Assembly (NCBI GenBank): GCA_021818545.1
Contig: JAKATX010000008.1
Span: 1-44,692 of the forward strand
From: Microcaldota archaeon
GTDB lineage: Archaea > Micrarchaeota > Micrarchaeia > Micrarchaeales > Micrarchaeaceae
Direction of reading: 5' to 3'
Length of the DNA stretch: 44,692 nucleotides
Shown: positions 9,573-10,466 of the stretch, piece after piece
How positions within the stretch are numbered: the stretch's first letter is position 1
Layout of the letters: each line of letters begins with the position of its first letter
Made by a program: the position numbers and the translations under genes
Notes under the pieces: model-generated
Told to the model about the DNA's origin: nothing
What the model saw: only the letters and a program-made list of their open reading frames with translations
Database searches by the model: none

Positions 9573-10160
9573 TTATTTAGGTGCCGGTGAAGGCTTTGCT
9601 GCAGGGGCCGCCGAGGCCGATGGCTTTGCATCACTCTTTGTGGCCGCTGCCATCTGCTCCTTCGCTGCCTTCTTCATGACACCGACAGTTGCGCCGGTCC
9701 TGCCAGTTGAGCGAGTACGCTGTCCGCGCACCTTTTGCCCGTACTGGTGCCTGTATCCACGCCATGACCTTAGCGTAACAGACCTGTTTATGTCTTGCCT
9801 TGTAGTAAGTAGTAAGTCATTGCTGACAAAATGGGAATCTTTGCCAGTTTCAAAGTACCTTCTGTGGTTAACCATGAAATTTGGTATGCCGTAGGAAAGC
9901 GGGTCCTTTATGACAGCCTCGACAGCGGATATCTGATCCTCGTCCAACGAACCTATGCTTGTGCTCCTTGGTATCTTGAGCTTCGTCTCTATAGCGCATG
10001 AGAGCGAATTTGACAGATTTGACCCTATGCCCTTTATCTGCGACATAGCGCGCTCCAGACTTAACGCTCCGTTGACGTCGCGCCCTGCCAGTCTCACTAT
10101 GGACGAGGCGCCCTTTTCACCTTTTTCCTCTTTCCTTTGAGGTTGCTTTTGCTCTGCCAT
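9573..10160 (-). CDS. rps13: 30S ribosomal protein S13
   Basis: 195 residues. It has the helix-two-turn-helix region (QIKGIGSNLSNSLSCAI), FMVNHRRYFETG and the basic C-terminal segment SWRGYRHQYGQKVRGQRTRSTGRTG that contacts the subunit interface and P-site tRNA. Extra Ala/Pro/Lys-rich tails sit at both ends. The open frame runs upstream to 10259, but that part overlaps the tRNA-Ser gene. ATG 10160 is preceded by GGTG and starts 12 bases after the tRNA, so it is the real start. It is first protein gene of the operon, possibly co-transcribed with the tRNA. Confidence 0.96.
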   Translation of the reverse strand: MAEQKQPQRKEEKGEKGASSIVRLAGRDVNGALSLERAMSQIKGIGSNLSNSLSCAIETKLKIPRSTSIGSLDEDQISAVEAVIKDPLSYGIPNFMVNHRRYFETGKDSHFVSNDLLLTTRQDINRSVTLRSWRGYRHQYGQKVRGQRTRSTGRTGATVGVMKKAAKEQMAAATKSDAKPSASAAPAAKPSPAPK

Positions 10161-10186
10161 TTCAACACCATACGCCGGGGTTGGGA

Positions 10187-10203
10187 TTTTCAGCACTGAG
10201 GCG
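10187..10203 (-). other. tRNA-Ser intron 2, T-loop position 59/60 (17 bases)
   Basis: The loop closed by the T-stem folds as TTCA/TGAA (4 bp) flanked by 3-base bulges AAC on the 5' side and AAT on the 3' side, then a short GC/GC helix. Archaeal endonuclease cutting after the second base of each bulge removes 17 bases and leaves TTCAAAT, a standard T-loop. Confidence 0.8.
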
Positions 10204-10235
10204 TTTGAACCCAAAAGGCCGTTAGGCCATGCGCT

Positions 10236-10247
10236 TGCCGTGTTTAA
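10236..10247 (-). other. tRNA-Ser intron 1, canonical position 37/38 (12 bases)
   Basis: Twelve bases (TTAAACACGGCA) separate A37 from A38 in the anticodon loop. The 3-base bulges AAT and CAA flank an imperfect 4-base helix (CTGG against ACGG with one G-A mismatch). This is a relaxed bulge-helix-bulge with a very short intron. Confidence 0.75.
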
Positions 10248-10466
10248 TTCCAGGCGCACGCGATACCGGATTCCGCCACCCCGGCATTTCAGAGAATTAT
10301 CTGTAATAACGTTATTTAGATATTTGCTATATCACTATGATAAAGCGCTGAAAGCACTATATATTACCGGACAATATTTAAAAACCTATGCAGGGACACA
10401 GATACGCAGTTTGCATGATACAGCATCGACTAATATGCATGCAAATGACAGATGTATTTGGAGATG

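Follow-up and report, generated by a model that had tools for sequence, protein, structure and literature searches.

The window, which is the whole stretch of 44,692 nucleotides analysed, carries on its minus strand a tRNA-Ser(GGA) gene interrupted by two short inserts (Table 1). The 3' end of the tRNA is separated by 12 nt from the start of the gene coding for ribosomal protein uS13, and the uS4 and uS11 genes come next. The exons display the features of a class II tRNA-Ser, namely the GGA anticodon, a long variable arm (GGCC-TAAC-GGCC) and discriminator base G73. The stems are formed, 5' to 3', by GCCGGGG/CCCCGGC (acceptor), TGCGC/GCGCA (anticodon stem) and TTGGG/CCCAA (T-stem).

Table 1. 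Features of the tRNA-Ser(GGA) locus, with positions numbered along the window.
Feature	Position	Strand	Basis or remarks
tRNA-Ser(GGA) gene	10173..10285	minus	113 nt unspliced, 84 nt without both introns; class II with G73, CCA not encoded
Exon 1: 5' side of the acceptor stem, D-arm, 5' side of the anticodon stem and loop up to position 37	10248..10285	minus	ARAGORN cloverleaf
Anticodon GGA	10251..10249	minus	within exon 1
Intron 1, TTAAACACGGCA, 12 nt, canonical position 37/38	10236..10247 (read 10247..10236)	minus	relaxed bulge-helix-bulge, 3/4 pairs
Exon 2: position 38, 3' side of the anticodon stem, variable arm, 5' side of the T-stem and T-loop	10204..10235	minus	ARAGORN cloverleaf
T-stem 5' strand TTGGG	10214..10210	minus	within exon 2
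T-loop part TTCAAA	10209..10204	minus	within exon 2
Intron 2, CGCCTCAGTGCTGAAAA, 17 nt, position 59/60 in the T-loop	10187..10203 (read 10203..10187)	minus	3-4-3 bulge-helix-bulge
Intron 2 TGAA paired with exon TTCA	10192..10189 with 10209..10206	minus	3-4-3 bulge-helix-bulge
Exon 3: T60, 3' side of the T-stem (CCCAA) and of the acceptor stem, discriminator G73	10173..10186	minus	ARAGORN cloverleaf
TATA-box-like AT-rich TCTAAATAA	10312..10320	minus	-35 to -27; A+T maximum at the same distance over 109 orthologs
uS13 gene	9573..10160	minus	ATG at 10160; sequence reading and relatives

Removal of both inserts leads ARAGORN, at its default threshold, to identify a tRNA-Ser(GGA) with a regular cloverleaf. 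At the same threshold no tRNA is found in the raw gene or when either insert alone is removed, while partial calls are obtained with the relaxed-score or intron options when one insert is removed. Both inserts lie inside an otherwise complete tRNA whose cloverleaf is restored by their excision in silico. An earlier note, made from the sequence of the window, had placed introns at 37/38 and 59/60 of this gene and held that only the removal of 12 and 17 bases restores a class II tRNA; its coordinates are exact and the second statement holds at the ARAGORN default threshold. The Rfam tRNA model, used at its gathering threshold on the raw window, also missed the tRNA-Ser(GGA) gene, showing that default annotation with these two tools overlooks such tRNAs. 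A covariance model of spliced relatives, whose 30 training rows include the spliced window sequence, scores the gene at 83 bits (E 6e-16). This model was built from spliced sequences; MAFFT alignment of the unspliced genes misplaced the T-stem in intronless rows.

The T-loop insert has a strict 3-4-3 bulge-helix-bulge (BHB) organization composed of the bulge AAC (cut after AA), the 4-bp helix TTCA/TGAA and the bulge AAT (cut after AA). Exon bases 54-57 (TTCA) pair with TGAA close to the 3' end of the insert, and cutting in both bulges generates the loop TTCAAAT. Among 86 distinct introns, 84 pair fully with TTCA at the expected place, versus 18 of 1348 other intron 4-mers. The motif of the 37/38 insert is relaxed, with three of four pairs in CTGG/ACGG, which is its commonest state among orthologs. 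A group I intron was considered and rejected, as the inserts have 12 and 17 nt, display no ribozyme core and gave no Rfam match.

Of 60 relatives, 57 gave matches in a DNA search. Scanning named genomes for the pattern retrieved 119 stretches, mostly from Micrarchaeota MAGs and including Ca. Micrarchaeum A_DKE and ARM-1. In A_DKE the two introns of the Ser(GGA) gene measure 14 nt (37/38) and 16 nt (59/60). The 158 genes parsed, 112 of which are distinct, belong nearly all to the order Micrarchaeales. The inserts are found at identical sites across dozens of genera and the exons are nearly invariant. All 112 distinct orthologs have the 37/38 intron, and once both introns are removed they all yield tRNAs of 84-87 nt with the loop CTGGA[AG]A. 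The 59/60 insert is present in 93 of them, with a length of 13-40 nt (mode 16 nt). It is absent in the other 19, whose T-loop is in every case TTCAAAT, the predicted spliced loop; the motif and its product are those that the earlier note had described.

Pairing of the exon-intron helix is complete (4/4) in 91 of the 93 interrupted orthologs, and the variants TGGA and TGAG retain wobble (G-U) pairs. The inner helix, formed by three intron pairs beside the bulges, is paired in 83, 83 and 61 of 85 introns, compared to shuffle means of 52, 46 and 38, uncorrected for shared ancestry, and the pair types vary. Its pairing amounts to 0.89 in register versus 0.22-0.51 when slid, again with shared ancestry left in the figures. 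Relative to TTCA:TGAA, a distant family (G126, G127) shows a compensatory change, with TTCG in the exon and CGAG or CGGA in the intron. Such two-sided changes of the exon-intron helix come from this one family because the exon side is constrained by T-loop function. The tRNA-Ser(GGA) of the same family features a T-loop insert and no anticodon insert.

The best matches to the Ser(GGA) covariance model in the source assembly (G000, 60% complete) and in three relatives that are 92-96% complete (G003, G034 and G012) include no second tRNA-Ser(GGA). The remaining Ser genes read in these four genomes have other anticodons. A further complete tRNA-Ser(GGA), which the earlier note had named as an observation that would speak against it, was thus not found in this set. 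By the archaeal decoding rule the GGA anticodon reads UCU and UCC and, since no second Ser(GGA) was found, this gene is most likely the only one to decode both codons.

ARMAN-2 (Ca. Micrarchaeum acidiphilum) was reportedly described by Fujishima in 2011 as having intron-containing tRNAs and an epsilon-2 EndA. The source genome encodes an EndA of 392 amino acids (G000:C2:94202-95377), with the length of about 390 residues of a three-fused-unit enzyme, that aligns end to end with ARMAN-2 EndA (4FZ2) at 559 bits. Its catalytic triad Y241/H256/K287 and lysine K166 of the ARMAN-specific loop (ASL) match Y236/H251/K282 and K161 of the reference enzyme (PMC6379350). As judged from these residues and the alignment, the endonuclease is of the ARMAN-2 type, epsilon-2, the three-unit form that had been predicted from the introns. 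It shares with ARMAN-2 both the type and the conserved triad and ASL lysine (PMC6379350, PMC12397907). Epsilon-2 endonucleases are known to accept both strict and relaxed motifs, located at various positions of the tRNA (PMC4033280, PMC12397907). The RtcB ligase is also encoded in the source genome.

It is highly probable (about 96%) that the locus is a functional single-copy Micrarchaeales tRNA-Ser(GGA) gene, from whose transcript EndA cuts two introns before the ends are joined, and that its T-loop intron is old and underwent several losses. The transcript would fold and be cut by the epsilon-2 EndA at the two introns. Cleavage of the 12-nt intron at 37/38 would proceed via the relaxed BHB, and that of the 17-nt intron at 59/60 via the strict 3-4-3 BHB in which T-loop bases 54-57 are paired to the intron. 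The ends would then be joined, most likely by RtcB, to yield a normal T-loop. Transcription, cleavage, ligation and the order of these steps are deduced here from the DNA.

The escape of the unspliced gene from ARAGORN and the incompleteness of the source assembly might suggest a decaying pseudogene that suffered two chance insertions while Ser(GGA) is supplied by another gene. This is extremely unlikely, as the same sites are occupied in dozens of genera with nearly invariant exons, and the Ser-model matches examined, from the source genome and from relatives that are 92-96% complete, contain no other Ser(GGA). The T-arm including its insert can fold by itself, as would be expected if only the 37/38 intron were removed and the T-loop insert stayed in the mature tRNA, expanding its T-loop. 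Such retention is very unlikely: the 3-4-3 BHB is maintained while the insert varies between 13 and 40 nt, the empty orthologs display the exact spliced loop, and pairing with the insert would sequester TTCRA.

The junction 59/60 is also the one used in permuted tRNAs of Thermofilum pendens and Cyanidioschyzon merolae (PMC3218864), which raises the alternative of permuted or split tRNA processing instead of a cis intron. In these tRNAs the splice junction is identical, whereas all exons found here follow the normal order inside 113 nt and the intron is internal. Gene order refutes this alternative, whose probability is vanishingly small.

The history of the T-loop intron was traced by parsimony on a tree of the ribosomal proteins uS13, uS4 and uS11 (85 genes, midpoint root). 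The root is reconstructed as intron-bearing, with six changes in all, and the intronless genes are scattered among the intron-bearing ones, which leads to about five losses within the order. The T-loop intron, ancestral by parsimony, is thus old in Micrarchaeales and underwent several precise losses. In other sampled families of the class, most of the Ser(GGA) genes read are without it, so its gain may have occurred at the origin of the order or before. The 93 intron-bearing and 19 empty alleles provide a natural data set in one tRNA gene, useful for the study of non-canonical intron retention and of repeated precise loss in a DPANN lineage whose endonuclease is of the epsilon-2 type.

Location within 150 nt of rps13 is found for 63 of the 93 intron-bearing genes and for 2 of the 19 intronless ones (Fisher p 4e-6, uncorrected for phylogeny), and for the intronless genes that could be placed on the tree the distance to rps13 is never below 90 nt. 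The position of uS13 12 nt downstream, together with the lack of tight linkage to rps13 of the intronless genes on the tree, could indicate that the T-loop intron is under selection and that its removal would gate 3'-end processing of the transcript shared with uS13. We regard this role as improbable.

The position 59/60 is published for archaeal tRNA introns (PMC4090602, the Yoshihisa 2014 review; Sugahara et al. 2008), and multiple-intron tRNAs are known in ARMAN-1 and ARMAN-2 (PMC4033280). The present gene resembles the known non-canonical 59/60 introns in position, in BHB motif and in the frequent companion intron at 37/38. It differs in that the intron, with 13-40 nt, occurs widely in the Ser(GGA) genes of one Micrarchaeota order, and that the endonuclease would be epsilon-2 instead of the (alpha-beta)2 form of Crenarchaeota. 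The gene is a further case of a kind already known, the archaeal BHB tRNA intron, a result that is sound but not surprising.

Several other tRNA genes of the source genome are also interrupted. The tRNA-Arg(TCT) and tRNA-Arg(CCT) genes (G000:C2:121361-121398 and G000:C3:5071-5120) have T-loop introns of 27 and 39 nt at 59/60; the standard tRNA model saw merely a 59-nt fragment of the former. In relatives, tRNA-Arg(TCG) has a T-loop intron as well. Anticodon-loop introns are found in the Ser(TGA), Tyr, Met, Ile and Trp tRNAs. Introns being common in other tRNAs of this genome, two of them in Arg genes at 59/60, the T-loop intron of Ser(GGA) is unexceptional there. The claim of the earlier note that so short a T-loop intron is rare does not stand, given its presence in 93 of 112 orthologs and in these two tRNA-Arg genes and the published position (PMC4090602). 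Short T-loop introns, as predicted in this gene, are the norm for Ser(GGA) in Micrarchaeales, most often with 16 nt. A second non-canonical position is occupied in tRNA-Ser(CGA) (G000:C10:8039-8139), whose anticodon stem is interrupted near 30/31 by a 16-nt insert. The tRNA-Leu(TAA) gene (G000:C11:44370-44479) features an apparent D-loop insert, and a similar one is found in G003, G012 and G034.
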